From the NCBI RefSeq assembly GCF_002001105.1, contig NZ_MUNP01000043.1, positions 1 to 64,000 of the forward strand: 64,000 bases of DNA. Direction: 5' to 3'. Below are positions 26,604 to 31,443 of this stretch, piece after piece. Position 1 is the stretch's first letter, and the number at the start of each line of letters is the position of its first letter. Both the position numbers and the translations under genes were made by a program. The notes under the pieces were generated by a model. That model saw nothing but the letters and a program-made list of their open reading frames with translations, ran no database searches and was not told where the DNA came from. This DNA is from Rhodanobacter sp. C06 (lineage in GTDB: Bacteria > Pseudomonadota > Gammaproteobacteria > Xanthomonadales > Rhodanobacteraceae).

Positions 26604-27182
26604 ATGTCCCTTCCCTTCGGCACCGTCGTTTCCCTGATCTGGGCGGCTTGGCTGCTGTACTGGTTCGTCAGCGCGTTTGGCACCAAGCGGGCGGCGCGGG
26701 TGGACAGCCTGGGCACGATGCTGGTGTACCGGGTGCCGCTGCTGCTGGGTTTCGCCCTGCTGTTCTCGAACCTCCCCTGGGCGGGATTGGAATGGTTGTG
26801 GCGAGCTTTCCTTCCGGCCGCGATGGGTTGGGCCTGGCTGGGCCTGCTCCTGCTGCTGCTCGGCGTGGGCTTCGCCTGCTGGGCGCGCGTGGCGCTGGGG
26901 CGCAACTGGAGCGCCACGGTGCAGTTGAAGCAGGGTCACGAGCTGGTCGTGGTCGGCCCGTACCGCTGGGTGCGCCATCCGATCTACACCGGCATCCTGC
27001 TGGGCCTGTTCGGCACGGCGCTGGTCATCGGCGAGTGGCGCGGCTTGCTCGCGCTGGCGCTGGTCGCCGCCGGCTTCTGGTTCAAGCTGCGCCACGAGGA
27101 GGTCTGGATGCGCGAGCGCTTCGGCGCCGCCTACGTGGACTACATGCGGCATACCAAGGCGCTGATTCCCGGCATCGTGTGA
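26604..27182 (+). CDS. Isoprenylcysteine carboxyl methyltransferase (ICMT)-family membrane protein
   Basis: 192 aa with about four or five membrane segments. The C-terminal signature VGPYRWVRHPIYTGILLG, then RHEEVWMRERFGAAYVDYMRHT, is typical of ICMT/PEMT-like methyltransferases, which bind SAM at the membrane interface. Bacterial members act on unknown lipids or small thiols rather than prenylated proteins. The ATG at 26604 is preferred because it starts the first membrane helix directly. The product of a 26565 start would only add charged residues. Confidence 0.82.
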   Translation: MSLPFGTVVSLIWAAWLLYWFVSAFGTKRAARVDSLGTMLVYRVPLLLGFALLFSNLPWAGLEWLWRAFLPAAMGWAWLGLLLLLLGVGFACWARVALGRNWSATVQLKQGHELVVVGPYRWVRHPIYTGILLGLFGTALVIGEWRGLLALALVAAGFWFKLRHEEVWMRERFGAAYVDYMRHTKALIPGIV

Positions 27183-27285
27183 CATCGCGGCCAAGGTGAA
27201 TGGACGTCCATCCGCACTTGTGCGGGCAAGGGCGTGCGGCGCATGCTCGGCCGGTTCTTCCCTGGCCACCGGAGCGATGCCGGAC

Positions 27286-27594
27286 ATGAAGCATTACTGC
27301 TGTCGATTGCTGGCGCCGCGTGCCACGTTTCCCGGTGACATGACGCCGGCCGAGGCGGCGGCGATGCACGAGCATGCGGGCTATTGGCGCGAGCGCATGC
27401 GCGAGGGCAAGGTGGTGGTGTTCGGGCCGGTGCGCGATCCGGTGGGCGCGTGGGGCCTGGCCGTGTTGCAGCTGCCGGACGACGAGGAACCTGCCGCACT
27501 GATCGACGGCGATCCGGTGATCCGTGCCGGCCTCGGCTTCCGCTTCGAGATCCACCCGATGCAGGCGGTGCTGCCGGAGTCGTCGCGCGGCTAG
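27286..27594 (+). CDS. YciI-like protein
   Basis: 102 aa. MKHYCCRLLAPRATFPGDMTPAEAAAMHEHAGYWRERMREGKVVVFGPVRDPVGAWGLAVLQ-type sequence is a YciI/YCII-related fold: His near residue 33 and an Asp close by are the conserved pair. GGAG at 27271-27274 suits the ATG at 27286 better than the one at 27277. It stands first in a run of YCII/DGPF genes but has no copy of the TGTCGAAA promoter motif of the next two genes, so it may not belong to the same regulon. Confidence 0.75.
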   Translation: MKHYCCRLLAPRATFPGDMTPAEAAAMHEHAGYWRERMREGKVVVFGPVRDPVGAWGLAVLQLPDDEEPAALIDGDPVIRAGLGFRFEIHPMQAVLPESSRG

Positions 27595-27604
27595 CGGCGT
27601 CAGC

Positions 27605-27631
27605 TGTCGAAACGGCCGGCGCCGGCGCGTC
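27605..27631 (+). promoter_or_regulatory. ECF42-type promoter of the first DGPF gene
   Basis: TGTCGAAA (27605-27612), a 15-base spacer and CGTC (27628-27631). The identical pattern occurs before the second DGPF gene. TGTCGA-type -35 boxes are described for ECF42 sigma factors, and such a sigma factor is encoded 1.2 kb downstream. Confidence 0.8.
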
Positions 27632-27680
27632 TAGGCCGTGGGCGACGCGATGCCGCGTCGCCATCACCGGGAGCCCTGCC

Positions 27681-28043
27681 ATGAATTACAGCATCCTGAT
27701 CTACGAGACCGCGGCCGATTTCGCCGTGCGCAACGACCCCGATCCCGAGCGGCGCGAAGCCTACTGGTCGGCGTGGCCACCGTATGCCCAGGCGCTGCGC
27801 GAGGCCGGCGTGTTCGCCGGCGGCGCCGGACTGGAGCCGCCGGATACCGCCACCACGCTGCGCTTCCGCGGCGACGAGCAGCTGGTGCAGGACGGCCCGT
27901 TCGCCGACACCAAGGAGCAGCTCGGCGGCTTCTTCATCGTCGACGTGCCCGATCTCGACGCCGCGCTGGCCTGGGCCGCGCGCGTGCCGCGTTCGCCCGG
28001 ACGGGTCTGCGAGGTGCGGCCCAACCTGAAACCTATGGGTTGA
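27681..28043 (+). CDS. DGPF-domain (YCII-related) protein 1
   Basis: 120 aa. The family-defining motif appears as DGPFADTKEQLGGFFIVDVPDLDAALAWAARVP (about residues 70-103). DGPF proteins are small ferredoxin-like-fold dimers of unknown activity and are the usual genetic partners of ECF42 sigma factors. GGGAG precedes ATG 27681. It has its own TGTCGAAA-N15-CGTC promoter. 43% or so visual similarity to the following DGPF gene suggests tandem duplication. Confidence 0.88.
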   Translation: MNYSILIYETAADFAVRNDPDPERREAYWSAWPPYAQALREAGVFAGGAGLEPPDTATTLRFRGDEQLVQDGPFADTKEQLGGFFIVDVPDLDAALAWAARVPRSPGRVCEVRPNLKPMG

Positions 28044-28050
28044 CGCGTTC

Positions 28051-28077
28051 TGTCGAAACCATCGTTGCCCGCGCGTC
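28051..28077 (+). promoter_or_regulatory. ECF42-type promoter of the second DGPF gene
   Basis: TGTCGAAA (28051-28058), 15 bases, CGTC (28074-28077), the same elements and spacing as at 27605-27631. The spacers differ in sequence, so the match is not just a recent duplication of the whole region. Confidence 0.8.
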
Positions 28078-28124
28078 CATGTCACGGACGCCCACCGCGC
28101 CCGCCCATCCTTCGGAGAACCGCC

Positions 28125-28514
28125 ATGCAATGCACGATCTTTGTCCACGAGCAGGCCCACATCATCGCCATGCGCAACGATCCGGTGCAGCGCGCCGCGC
28201 TGTATCCGCCGATCGGCGCCTACCTCGACGCGCTGAAGGAGGCCGGCGTGTTCGTTGCCGGCGCCGGGCTGGAAGAACGGTCCACGGCCACCGTGCTGTC
28301 CGCCGCCGGCAGCAGCTGGCAGGCGCAGGACGGCCCGTATGCCGACACCAAGGAACAGCTGGCCGGCTTCTTCCTGATCGACGTGCCCGACCGCGCCACT
28401 GCGCTGGCCTGGGCGCGGCGCTGTCCGGTGTTGCCGGGACGCACGGTCGAGTTGCGCGGCAACTTGTGCCGGCCGGAGGAGATGCAACCGGCCGTGCACG
28501 CGGTACAGGCATGA
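28125..28514 (+). CDS. DGPF-domain (YCII-related) protein 2
   Basis: 129 aa. Contains DGPYADTKEQLAGFFLIDVPDRATALAWARRCP, a variant of the DGPF motif, and VRNDP-like MRNDPVQRAALYPPIGAYLDALKEAGVFVAGAGLE near the N-terminus, aligned with DGPF protein 1. GGAG lies before the ATG at 28125. With the TfoX-N-like and sigma genes it forms a compact unit: the next gene begins 16 bp downstream. Confidence 0.88.
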   Translation: MQCTIFVHEQAHIIAMRNDPVQRAALYPPIGAYLDALKEAGVFVAGAGLEERSTATVLSAAGSSWQAQDGPYADTKEQLAGFFLIDVPDRATALAWARRCPVLPGRTVELRGNLCRPEEMQPAVHAVQA

Positions 28515-28530
28515 GCGCTCGGCTCCGGCC

Positions 28531-28875
28531 ATGAAGGAACGCGCCGCCGCCAGTGTGCCCGTCGATGCCGAGGCGCTGTTCCGCGCGCTCGCCTCGCGCC
28601 TGGGCGAAGCGAGCACGGTCGCGCCTGCGCAGCGTTTCGGCGACGGCGCGCTGAAGGTCGATGGCCGCATCTACGCCGCGCTCAGCCACGGCCGCCTCTT
28701 GCTCAAGCTGCCGGTCGCGCGCGTGGAGGCGCTGCTGGCGGCGGGGCAGGGCGAACGTTTCCGCTCCGGTGGCCGCGTGATGAAGGCGTGGGTCACGGTT
28801 GGGCCGGAACACGGCGAGGAGTGGCTCGCGCTGGCGCGCGAAGCGCGCGCCTTCGTCGCCGGCCCTGCACGATGA
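28531..28875 (+). CDS. TfoX N-terminal-domain-like protein
   Basis: 114 aa. The core KVDGRIYAALSHGRLLLKLPVARVEALLAAGQGERFRSGGRVMKAWVTV matches the TfoX_N fold (MmcQ/YjbR-like beta-alpha protein). Stand-alone members are frequent next to DGPF and ECF sigma genes, but their function is unknown; full-length TfoX regulates competence, and this protein lacks the C-terminal half. Lies between DGPF protein 2 and the sigma factor, 10 bp from the latter. Confidence 0.8.
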   Translation: MKERAAASVPVDAEALFRALASRLGEASTVAPAQRFGDGALKVDGRIYAALSHGRLLLKLPVARVEALLAAGQGERFRSGGRVMKAWVTVGPEHGEEWLALAREARAFVAGPAR

Positions 28876-28885
28876 TGGCGGCCGC

Positions 28886-30121
28886 ATGAGCGTCGACGCG
28901 ACGCATCGCGCGGTCGAGCAGGCGGCACGCGAATCCTACGGCCGCCTGCTCGCCTTCCTCGCCGCGCGCACGCGCGACGTGGCGGCCGCCGAAGACGCGC
29001 TGGCCGAGGCCTTCCATGCGGCGCTGGAGCACTGGCCGCGCGATGGCGTGCCCGCACAGCCGGAGGCCTGGCTGCTCACCGCCGCGCGGCGCCGGCTGAT
29101 CGATGCGTCGCGGCGCGCACAGGTGCGTCGCGACGCGTTGCCCGCGCTGCTGGTTGCGGCGGATGCAGCGGAGGAACAACTCGTGCCCGATCTCGCGTTT
29201 CCCGACGAACGTCTCAAGCTGCTGTTCGTCTGCGCGCACCCGGCGATCGCCCGCGACGTGCACACACCGCTGATGCTGCAGACCGTGCTGGGGCTGGATG
29301 CCGCGCGCATCGCCTCGGCCTTCCTGGTGAAGCCGGCCACCATGGGCCAGCGGTTGAGCCGCGCCAAGGCGAAGATCCGCGATGCCGGCATCGCGTTCGA
29401 GCTGCCGCTGGCCGGTGACTTGCCGGCGCGGCTCGGCGCCGTGCTGGAAGCGATCTACGCCGCCTACGGTAGCGGCTGGGACGACGTGGCAGGCGCCGAT
29501 CCGCGTCGTCGGGGCCTGGCCATCGAAGCGGTGGCGCTGGGCCGCACCTTGCTGCAGCTGCTGCCGGCCGAGCCCGAGGCGCGCGGCCTGCTGGCGCTGA
29601 TGCTGTACTGCGAATTGCGCCGCGCCGCGCGCCGCGACGAGAGTGGCACCTACGTGCCGCTGTCGCGGCAGGACACTATGCGCTGGTCGCGACCGCTGAT
29701 CGCGGAAGCGGATCGTCTGCTGCAGGCTGCCCAGCGCGCGGGGCGGCTGGGCCGCTTCCAACTGGAAGCGGCGATCCAGGCCGTGCATGCGCGCCGCGCC
29801 GTCAGCGGCGTCACCGACTGGGAAGCGCTGGCGCTGTTGTACGAAGGGCTGGTGCGTCTCGCACCCGGCATCGGCGCCCTGGTGGGCCGGGCCGCCGCGG
29901 TGGCCGAAGCGCGCGATGCCGAACACGGCTGGGCGCTGCTGCAGGCGATTCCGGCCGAGGCCGTGCGCGACTACCAGCCCTACTGGGCGCTGGCCACGCA
30001 CCTGCTCGCGCGCCTGCAGCGCCATGGCGAAGCGGATACGGCCCGCGAGCGCGCGATCGGCCTGTGCGAAGACCCGGCGATGCGCACATTCTTGCGGCAA
30101 CAGGGGCGTCGTCCGCACTGA
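28886..30121 (+). CDS. ECF42-type RNA polymerase sigma factor with C-terminal extension
   Basis: 411 aa. Sigma region 2 (about residues 8-75, YGRLLAFLAARTRDVAAAEDALAEAFHAALEHWP) and region 4 (about 105-165, FVCAHPAIA..TPLMLQTVLGLDAARIASAFLVKPATMGQRLSRAKAKI) are followed by a long helical domain (about 170-411, SNOAL-free, TPR-like: LIAEADRLLQAAQRAGRLGRFQLEAAIQAVHA), which defines ECF42. No anti-sigma factor gene is nearby; in this group the C-terminal domain is thought to control activity. Linked to two DGPF genes whose promoters share one motif. Confidence 0.92.
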   Translation: MSVDATHRAVEQAARESYGRLLAFLAARTRDVAAAEDALAEAFHAALEHWPRDGVPAQPEAWLLTAARRRLIDASRRAQVRRDALPALLVAADAAEEQLVPDLAFPDERLKLLFVCAHPAIARDVHTPLMLQTVLGLDAARIASAFLVKPATMGQRLSRAKAKIRDAGIAFELPLAGDLPARLGAVLEAIYAAYGSGWDDVAGADPRRRGLAIEAVALGRTLLQLLPAEPEARGLLALMLYCELRRAARRDESGTYVPLSRQDTMRWSRPLIAEADRLLQAAQRAGRLGRFQLEAAIQAVHARRAVSGVTDWEALALLYEGLVRLAPGIGALVGRAAAVAEARDAEHGWALLQAIPAEAVRDYQPYWALATHLLARLQRHGEADTARERAIGLCEDPAMRTFLRQQGRRPH

Positions 30122-30354
30122 GTTCCGGTACGGAAGACAACGCCGGCGCGGGCCGATTGAACCAAAACGGCCGAAACGGGCATGAACACATGTCGGGATC
30201 AGGCGATCCCGGTGATGGGTCATGCACGACAGCAAGCGAAGACGGCCGGAACCGGCGGCATGGCGGCAAGCGACCACGCCGACTGCTGGCGCACCGATCT
30301 GCGCGCAACGCCGTGACCTCGTCTCGCCACGCAACCCGAACGGAGGAACCCTCC

Positions 30355-31443
30355 ATGTCACGCATTCCGATTTCCGCGCCGATCCTGCGCCGTCTCGCCA
30401 CCGCCCTCGTCGTGGCCGGCGTTGCCACCATCAGCTTGCAGGCGAAGCCGGCGCTCGCCCGCGGCGGCGACGACGGCAACATCCTCGTCGCCGACCAGTT
30501 CAACAACCGCGTCGTCGAGATCAACCGCCGGACGCACCAGGTGGTGTGGCAATTCGGCAACGGCTCCGATCTGCCCGGCCCGCACAGCGTCGTGGGCACC
30601 AACGACGCCGAGCGCTTCGGCTCGCTCACCCTGATCTCCGGCACCGGCACGCCGCCGGGGCTGCCCGGCTGCAGCGACACGGTGAACGGCTGTCCCGACA
30701 ACCGCGTGATCGTGGTCGATCCGCACGGCGACATCGTCTGGCAATACGGCCAGGCGGGCGTGGCCGGCGCCGGTCCGGACCAGCTCAACACGCCGGTGCA
30801 GGCGCTGTTCCTGGTCAGCTTCCCGGGCCACTACGGACCGCACGTGCTGATCGCCGACCAGGCCAACCAGCGCATCATCCTGGTCAACCTGCGCAAGCAG
30901 GTCGTGTGGCAGTACGGCACCACCGGCGTCAGCGGCAGCGGGCCGAACCAGCTCGACAACCCGAACAGCGCCGAGCTGCTGGCCAATGGCCACGTCCTGA
31001 TCGCCGACGAGAACAACAACCGCGTGATCGAGGTCACCCGGACCGGCGCACTGGTGAAGCAATTCACCGCGCTGGGCACGGTGAGCGGCGCGGCGTTCGC
31101 CAGCCGCTTGCCGAACGGCGACACGCTGATCACCGATTCCAACAACAACCGCATCGTGGAGGTGGATGCGAGCGACAACCCGGTGTGGCAGTACTTCACC
31201 AACACCGAGGCGGGCAGCAATCCCACGCCCTTGCCCACGCGCGCGGTGCGCCTGCGCAACGGCGACACGCTGATCAGCGACCAGTTCAACGACCGCGTGA
31301 TCGAAGTGAACATGCTGGGCAAGACCGTGTTCACGCAAGGCGCGCTGAACACGCCCGGCAGCGGCTACGACCAGCTCAACGGACCCTACGACGCCAAGCA
31401 GATCGGCGACTTCACCGGACTGACGCCGCCGTTTGGCAAATGA
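30355..31443 (+). CDS. Secreted NHL/beta-propeller repeat protein
   Basis: 362 aa with a signal peptide (about 1-35, ending PALA|RG). The mature part is built of six-bladed-propeller-like repeats with the pattern HVLIADxxNNRVIEV..., for example NILVADQFNNRVVEI, HVLIADQANQRIILV, HVLIADENNNRVIEV, DTLITDSNNNRIVEV and DTLISDQFNDRVIEV, interleaved with VWQYG motifs. Such NHL/PQQ-like propellers bind ligands or proteins; no enzymatic residue is evident. GGAGGAA (30342-30348) supports the ATG at 30355. The 233 bp before it show no promoter I can defend. Confidence 0.85.
   Translation: MSRIPISAPILRRLATALVVAGVATISLQAKPALARGGDDGNILVADQFNNRVVEINRRTHQVVWQFGNGSDLPGPHSVVGTNDAERFGSLTLISGTGTPPGLPGCSDTVNGCPDNRVIVVDPHGDIVWQYGQAGVAGAGPDQLNTPVQALFLVSFPGHYGPHVLIADQANQRIILVNLRKQVVWQYGTTGVSGSGPNQLDNPNSAELLANGHVLIADENNNRVIEVTRTGALVKQFTALGTVSGAAFASRLPNGDTLITDSNNNRIVEVDASDNPVWQYFTNTEAGSNPTPLPTRAVRLRNGDTLISDQFNDRVIEVNMLGKTVFTQGALNTPGSGYDQLNGPYDAKQIGDFTGLTPPFGK

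Follow-up and report, generated by a model that had tools for sequence, protein, structure and literature searches.

Two candidate ECF42 promoters in a DGPF operon of Rhodanobacter sp. C06, a genome with two ECF42 lineages

The operon and its two candidate promoters

The first 64,000 nucleotides (64 kb) of contig NZ_MUNP01000043.1 of Rhodanobacter sp. C06 (assembly GCF_002001105.1), the whole stretch of DNA analysed here and called the window below, carry a four-gene operon on the + strand that ends with the gene of an extracytoplasmic function (ECF) sigma factor of the ECF42 type. The first two genes encode the YCII-domain proteins DGPF1 (27681..28043, 120 amino acids (aa)) and DGPF2 (28125..28514, 129 aa), which match PF03795 with 57 and 58 bits (cut-off 24) and are 52% identical in an alignment, and they are followed by the gene of a small protein of 114 aa, tentatively of the YjbR/TfoX_N superfamily (28531..28875), and by the sigma gene (28886..30121, 411 aa). 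Two candidate promoters are found on the same strand. P1 (27605..27631), ahead of DGPF1, consists of the -35 element TGTCGAAA (27605-27612), a 15-bp spacer and the -10 element CGTC (27628-27631), and P2 (28051..28077), between DGPF1 and DGPF2, has the same -35 element (28051-28058), a 15-bp spacer and CGTC at 28074-28077. The occurrence of TGTCGAAA-N15-CGTC before both DGPF genes, reported in an earlier note on this DNA, is exact, and the two spacers, there called unrelated, do differ in sequence but agree at 9 of 15 positions and both end in GCG. The exact motif has two copies in the window, which has a G+C content of 69%, and none in 100 dinucleotide shuffles. No sigma-70-type promoter and no terminator-like site on the + strand was found in 27500-30400.

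The sigma factor matches Sigma70_r2 with 35 bits (cut-off 24) and, in its C-terminal extension, DUF6596 with 96.5 bits (cut-off 27); the sigma4 region (r4_2) stays at 21.4 bits, below its cut-off of 25.7, and there is no r3 match. Its structural model is nearly all helical (predicted local distance difference test score, pLDDT, 90.3), and the top fold matches of the C-terminus are tetratricopeptide repeat (TPR) proteins (best E 1.8e-3, prob 1.00, none <0.001). The flanking genes encode a PEMT/ICMT-type methyltransferase and an NHL-repeat protein, so there is no adjacent anti-sigma gene, and the long ECF42 C-terminal domain and the lack of an anti-sigma gene among YCII, YjbR/TfoX-like, PEMT/ICMT and NHL neighbours are as the earlier note described them. 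Besides the two YCII/DGPF genes in the operon a third, more distant one (27286-27594, 32.8 bits) is located just upstream of P1; it was not counted as part of the module, having no class B site (defined below) before it and no counterpart at the closely related locus L128. Two proteins scanned against PHROGs gave no match.

The class B promoter across phyla

In a family-wide search DUF6596 was found in 95 of 117 genomes, and the scores split into a higher-scoring class A and a lower-scoring class B, the latter including the window sigma. The comparison employed 28 class B loci (at most 114.6 bits, the window apart) and 12 class A loci, with a few at 117-119 bits left outside, and BLAST placed 28/28 class B sigmas nearer to the window sigma and 12/12 class A sigmas nearer to the other DUF6596 sigma of this genome, on contig C20. 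A second set, from named genomes, was the best 80 of 580 related places. Class B loci occur in Pseudomonadota, Bacillota, Cyanobacteriota, Acidobacteriota, Verrucomicrobiota, Gemmatimonadota and single metagenome-assembled genomes (MAGs) of other phyla. Among the 79 named loci with a full-length sigma, a YCII gene is found no more than 2 kb upstream of the sigma in 77, and in 26 there is a 4-base overlap with the sigma start.

With an iterated matrix a 27-bp class B motif was found before 101 of 114 YCII genes and in 0/114 with the reversed control, the lowest accepted score being 16.5 and the highest rejected one -2.6. These upstream regions, which also served to train the matrix, come from the named loci and the 28 family loci and exclude the window and L128; at least four genomes are entered twice. 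The consensus is TGTCGAAAT-N14-CGTCAT, with the lineage forms TGTA in most Paenibacillaceae examined and TGTCC in a clade of the window's own family, and with CC or GC replacing CG in the -10 element of rhizobia and their kin. A first, stricter motif search had recovered only 45 of 84 YCII upstreams, missing sites because of the TGTA of Paenibacillaceae and the rhizobial CC/GC, and was superseded by the matrix. Scored by the matrix, to whose training they had not contributed, P1 reaches 24.6 and P2 19.15, and a scan of both strands of the 64 kb showed no other class B site above 8 bits. The promoter of Streptomyces ECF42 reportedly has the form TGTCGA / CG[AT]C, which P1 and P2 fit. The window operon is an ordinary ECF42 module in which all ECF42 features that could be tested are present, and the ECF42 identity, the DGPF partners and the promoter reading proposed in the earlier note are supported by the Pfam matches, the TPR fold matches and the conservation at 101 of 114 genes.

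Class B and class A sites in the genome

In the 4.14-Mb assembly TGTC[GC]AAA-N15-CG[AT]C gave three sites, against one for the backward-pattern control. The third site, C10:91258, overlaps a predicted 116-aa open reading frame (ORF) on the opposite strand close to a contig end and was for this reason dropped from the class B regulon. At one mismatch there were 11 sites vs 8 in the control, and the clear excess is therefore limited to exact sites. As exact and one-mismatch searches add nothing clear to P1 and P2, the idea of further class B targets in this genome was rejected, and the class B regulon detected is the window operon only. The earlier note had named a frequent motif, unrelated to DGPF or sigma genes, as the outcome that would speak against it; the genome-wide search shows a rare motif tied to these genes. 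Sequence data suffice to establish which genes and sites are present, that the sites are conserved and that they are rare.

The C20 sigma, of class A, is about 37% identical to the window sigma, and the two are the only DUF6596 sigma genes of the genome. Among the eight genomes of the genus in the family-wide search a second DUF6596 gene was found in this one alone, the other seven having a single gene of class A. Upstream of the class A loci TGTCG-N18-CGTC is present in 12/12, with TTCGTC in 10/12; the exceptions are L124 with GCTCGTC, at a site about 1 kb from the YCII gene, and L127 with GCGCGTC. Class A sites of the form TGTCGAT-N12-CNTTCGTCG with at most one mismatch number 11 in this genome (control 2) and 79 across 11 genomes of the genus, where the control totals 2. 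The 11 are scattered over contigs C1, C3, C4, C6, C19, C20, C26, C33 (two), C38 and C66, ten of them being contained in L009-L021, and in 9/11 the -10 element reads TTCGTCG, a form that P1 and P2 lack. The second ECF42 thus has a larger set of sites in this genome than class B. The C20 system is like that of the window in its DUF6596 sigma, its YCII gene and its TGTCGA...CGTC promoter, and unlike it in the -10 TTCGTCG and in having scattered sites before other genes. Two lineages of ECF42 that share a -35 element and differ in the surroundings of the -10 element in one genome make a natural test of how small a difference between promoters can insulate two sigma factors.

Two observations concern the border between the classes. 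At L127:2463 (- strand) a site resembling class B, TGTCGAAA...GCGCGTCG, belongs to a class A sigma operon and hints at a possible interchange of the two promoter forms. Near a class B operon, at L105:4749 (- strand), the class A-type TTCGTCG stands before a 3-dmu-9_3-mt (glyoxalase-like) gene.

Covariation of sigma residues with the promoter

Over 98 sigma-promoter pairs, residue 155 (codon 29348-29350 in the window) covaries with the -35 element, being Q with TGTCG (79) and K with TGTCC (18), with L193 (Q with TGTCC) as the sole exception. Residue 73 (codon 29102-29104) covaries with the -10 element, being D with CG (89), Q with CC (4), H with GC (3) and R with GC (2). The window sigma has Q155 and D73, matching the letters of its sites. 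In a quick tree the TGTCC label needs two changes and the -10 label one, which are minimum figures counted against rows of other labelled groups only; the switching between Q-CC and H/R-GC among nine rhizobial or kindred rows is the part least explained by descent. That a few residues read ECF promoters, and that they covary with them, has been published (Todor 2020, as related in the available parts of PMC11588781 and PMC8103513). The covariation lends support to class B sigmas reading class B motifs.

A self-activating operon as the favoured interpretation

The operon is quite probably self-activating, its class B sigma factor directing RNA polymerase to P1 and P2. The TPR extension of the sigma, and not an anti-sigma factor, would hold or release it. 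P1 would give the full DGPF1-DGPF2-YjbR/TfoX-like-sigma message, and P2 a shorter one without DGPF1, adding to the dose of DGPF2, the small protein and the sigma over that of DGPF1. If the sigma activates both sites, it would thereby raise the amounts of itself and of the DGPF proteins, and the latter, as the main output, may report back to the TPR domain. The use of P1 and P2 by the sigma, the feedback and the role of the TPR domain are what we infer from sequence and comparison.

Several points weigh against such self-activation. In the available text on RpoE10, an ECF42 of Sinorhizobium meliloti, overexpression of the sigma left its own operon unraised (PMC6180224), and self-activation is therefore not general for ECF42. 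The -10 elements of P1 and P2 read CGTCTA and CGTCCA and not the usual CGTCAT; of the 101 sites, 96 have A directly after CGTC. On the tree only a handful of events account for the residue and promoter changes, making shared descent a confounder of the covariation, and some targets of the two classes (described below) are alike, so that the company they keep does not separate the systems. The class A sigma, furthermore, carries the same residues at 73 and 155, as judged by eye, and a TGTCGAAA...GCGCGTC site is found at the class A operon L127.

The last two points bear on an alternative, that P1 and P2 are driven by the class A ECF42 of C20 and that the operon is a unit of the class A regulon with the class B sigma as a downstream relay. 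Since the two sigmas share the residues at both covarying positions and the L127 site exists, the class A sigma might also use P1 and P2, and the -35 TGTCGA is common to both motifs. The -10 TTCGTCG of class A (9/11 sites in this genome; TTCGTC at 10/12 class A loci) is missing from P1 and P2, however, and class B loci elsewhere retain their own form, TGTCGAAAT...CGTCAT, which makes this relay unlikely. Direction of the operon by its own class B sigma is preferred.

The second promoter and locus L128

The 13 YCII upstreams without a class B motif include 10 of a second DGPF gene in a two-DGPF operon, with three genomes counted twice; the others are L162, L168 and L197. With each genome taken once there are nine two-DGPF loci (the window, L128, L129, L131, L133, L139, L154, L109 and L114), and the motif stands before the second DGPF gene only in the window and L128 (2/9), being absent in the seven others. 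The L128 sigma is 90% identical to that of the window. Both sites are kept there at the same spacing with changed spacers, P1 starting with GGTCGAAA (one change), and the YjbR/TfoX-like gene is absent. Two promoters per locus are not in themselves unique, as two or more class B sites above 12 bits stand on the + strand in 10 of the 80 named loci. These extra sites stand mostly before other genes, as at L150, where FMN_red and YCII genes each have a site in front, and at L114, where a site lies just after the second DGPF gene and before an ORF. Only the window and L128 have a class B site directly before the second DGPF gene.

These data also bear on whether P1 is the sole real promoter and P2 a remnant of a tandem duplication of promoter and DGPF gene. 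Such an origin would fit the homology of DGPF1 and DGPF2, the absence of P2 at seven of nine two-DGPF loci and the P2 leader of the window, in which no stable hairpin is found, but the retention of the P2 elements and of their spacing in L128 despite a changed spacer makes it improbable that P2 is a mere relic. Chance or a repeat element as the source of the repeated motif, for which the high G+C content and the 9/15 agreement of the spacers could be quoted, is extremely improbable given no match in 100 shuffles, three genomic sites and conservation at 101/114 genes.

Comparison with known ECF42 systems

The novelty that the earlier note saw in the proteobacterial host does not hold, as class B loci span several phyla and proteobacterial ECF42 have been published, namely S. 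meliloti RpoE10 (PMC6180224) and Pseudomonas putida ECF-10 (review PMC8999054), as far as the available parts of these sources go. The SMc01151-rpoE10 operon is like that of the window in its sigma with a TPR extension, the YCII-type gene upstream, the lack of an anti-sigma gene and the promoters TGTCGG...CGTC; unlike in the window, a single YCII gene stands beside the sigma, and the available part of the report describes no second internal promoter and no YjbR/TfoX-like gene (PMC6180224). YCII neighbours, as in the window, are likewise given for the Streptomyces venezuelae ECF42 Sven_0747, Sven_4377 and Sven_7131 and for P. putida ECF-10, and in S. venezuelae ECF42 and P. putida ECF-10 the C-terminal TPR extension is required for activity, according to the passages available from the review (PMC8999054).

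A two-promoter DGPF operon was not found in one collection of literature on ECF42, DGPF, DUF6596 and TfoX/YCII with sigma. In our view this analysis adds the coexistence of two ECF42 lineages that have distinct sites, a second promoter accompanied by a small gene inserted in the operon, and a tendency of leaders to hold a hairpin. A previously uncharacterised operon is now placed firmly in ECF42, and the outcome is a class B promoter model across phyla, two candidate sigma residues and a pointer to a leader hairpin.

Genes sharing the promoters and the role of DGPF proteins

Ten proteins encoded behind class A-type sites in this genome were scanned, giving four YCII, one each of GST, DUF899, RibD_C and AHSA1, and two without a Pfam match. 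Nine of them follow the 11 class A sites, the RibD_C protein following a further site, and the sites outside these nine are those on C19, with no clear gene, and C66. Other class B sites precede FMN_red, SDR, DUF899, SnoaL_2 and CMD genes. The genes sharing these promoters suggest, by their predicted families, the handling of reactive small molecules, and the DGPF proteins are probably small-molecule-binding or detoxifying proteins of the YCII fold; the operon may on this ground have a role in electrophile or redox stress. The sole solved match of DGPF1 at E 0.01 is the YCII/DGPF-type protein PA1349 of P. aeruginosa (PDB 1S7I, E 6.4e-17), itself listed as a hypothetical protein. A protein type without a Pfam match that has MAPxxQYLM near the N-terminus (L012:2176-2925, L019:3175-3885 and L165:5326-6054) recurs behind class A sites here and, in a Gemmatimonadaceae MAG, behind one of class B.

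A hairpin in class B leaders

The P1 leader contains an inverted repeat on the + strand (27641..27662) with a 9-bp stem, arms at 27641-27649 and 27654-27662 and the loop ATGC, and L128 has a hairpin there too, with a sequence of its own. If transcription starts about 9 nt after CGTC, the P1 hairpin would be at the 5' end of the mRNA. Two of the three S. meliloti ECF42 promoter strings in the available part of the report end 9 nt after CGTC (PMC6180224), and this end is taken as a putative transcript start.

Folding was scored for the 38 nt after CGTC as z vs dinucleotide shuffles, in 67 non-redundant leaders out of the 101, from loci in L088-L115 and L128-L207. The class B leaders had a mean z of -1.52, with 34/67 at p<=0.05 and 34/67 at z<-1.64, vs a mean of -0.22 and 6/67 at z<-1.64 in the control, the 38 nt upstream of the -35 element. 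Among the 54 stems of at least five pairs, 28 begin at offset 6-8 after CGTC. Firmicutes leaders showed a weak trend (n=11, mean z -0.55), and the window P1 leader as a whole reached only -1.29 (single-base shuffles). A leader hairpin for the whole ECF42 regulon was rejected, since class A leaders show no clear trend: 38 non-redundant sites gave a mean z of -0.57 (control -0.34) and 8/38 vs 6/38 at p 0.05.

With the prediction set beforehand, 11 non-redundant leaders from new loci gave a mean z of -1.65 with 5/11 at p<=0.05, vs +0.27 and 0/11 in the control, and the offsets of the stem starts were more irregular than the prediction had it. Of these leaders, five (L258, L259, L263, L265 and L267) adjoin sigmas only about 39-44% identical to that of the window, L252 precedes a non-DGPF gene, and L241 shares 86% identity with a site already in the first set; the remaining L239, L240, L246 and L251 have z of -1.23, -0.32, -1.11 and -3.15, with one of four at p 0.05. 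The replication points the same way and is weaker than it looks, few leaders being truly independent. The stems vary in sequence from lineage to lineage, a pattern that suits an RNA structure better than a single operator sequence. In a MAFFT alignment of 51 leaders the 3' arms were not aligned, and Rfam gave no match in 27000-30500. That class B ECF42 DGPF messages begin with a stem-loop near the transcript start, its sequence free and its pairing kept, as a built-in 5' mRNA stabiliser or sensing leader across several phyla, is put forward tentatively, as an idea that may well prove wrong.

The small protein

The gene that the earlier note called TfoX_N-like is present at 28531-28875, but its TfoX_N (PF04993) match of 21.2 bits misses the cut-off of 30.1, and YjbR (PF04237) is absent from its Pfam matches. 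Relatives among the 80 named loci were found only at L131, L133, L139 and L154 with a model built from seven sequences, which distant versions may escape. When these four were scanned, YjbR scored 25.5 bits in L131, 22.9 in L139 and 28.1 in L154 (cut-off 30.1), and L133 had no Pfam match; L154 further gave TfoX_N at 24.5 bits and a Luciferase-domain match at 25.9, above its cut-off of 23.7. The AlphaFold model of the window protein has a pLDDT of 83.5, and Foldseek gave a best E of 0.086 with none <0.001. A second-look structural alignment ranked the YjbR-type structures PSPTO_3016 (Z 10.2) and DR2400 (Z 8.9), then VP1028 (Z 8.1), before the next matches at Z of about 6 and MotA-like matches at about 5, and the small protein is tentatively assigned to the YjbR/TfoX_N superfamily.

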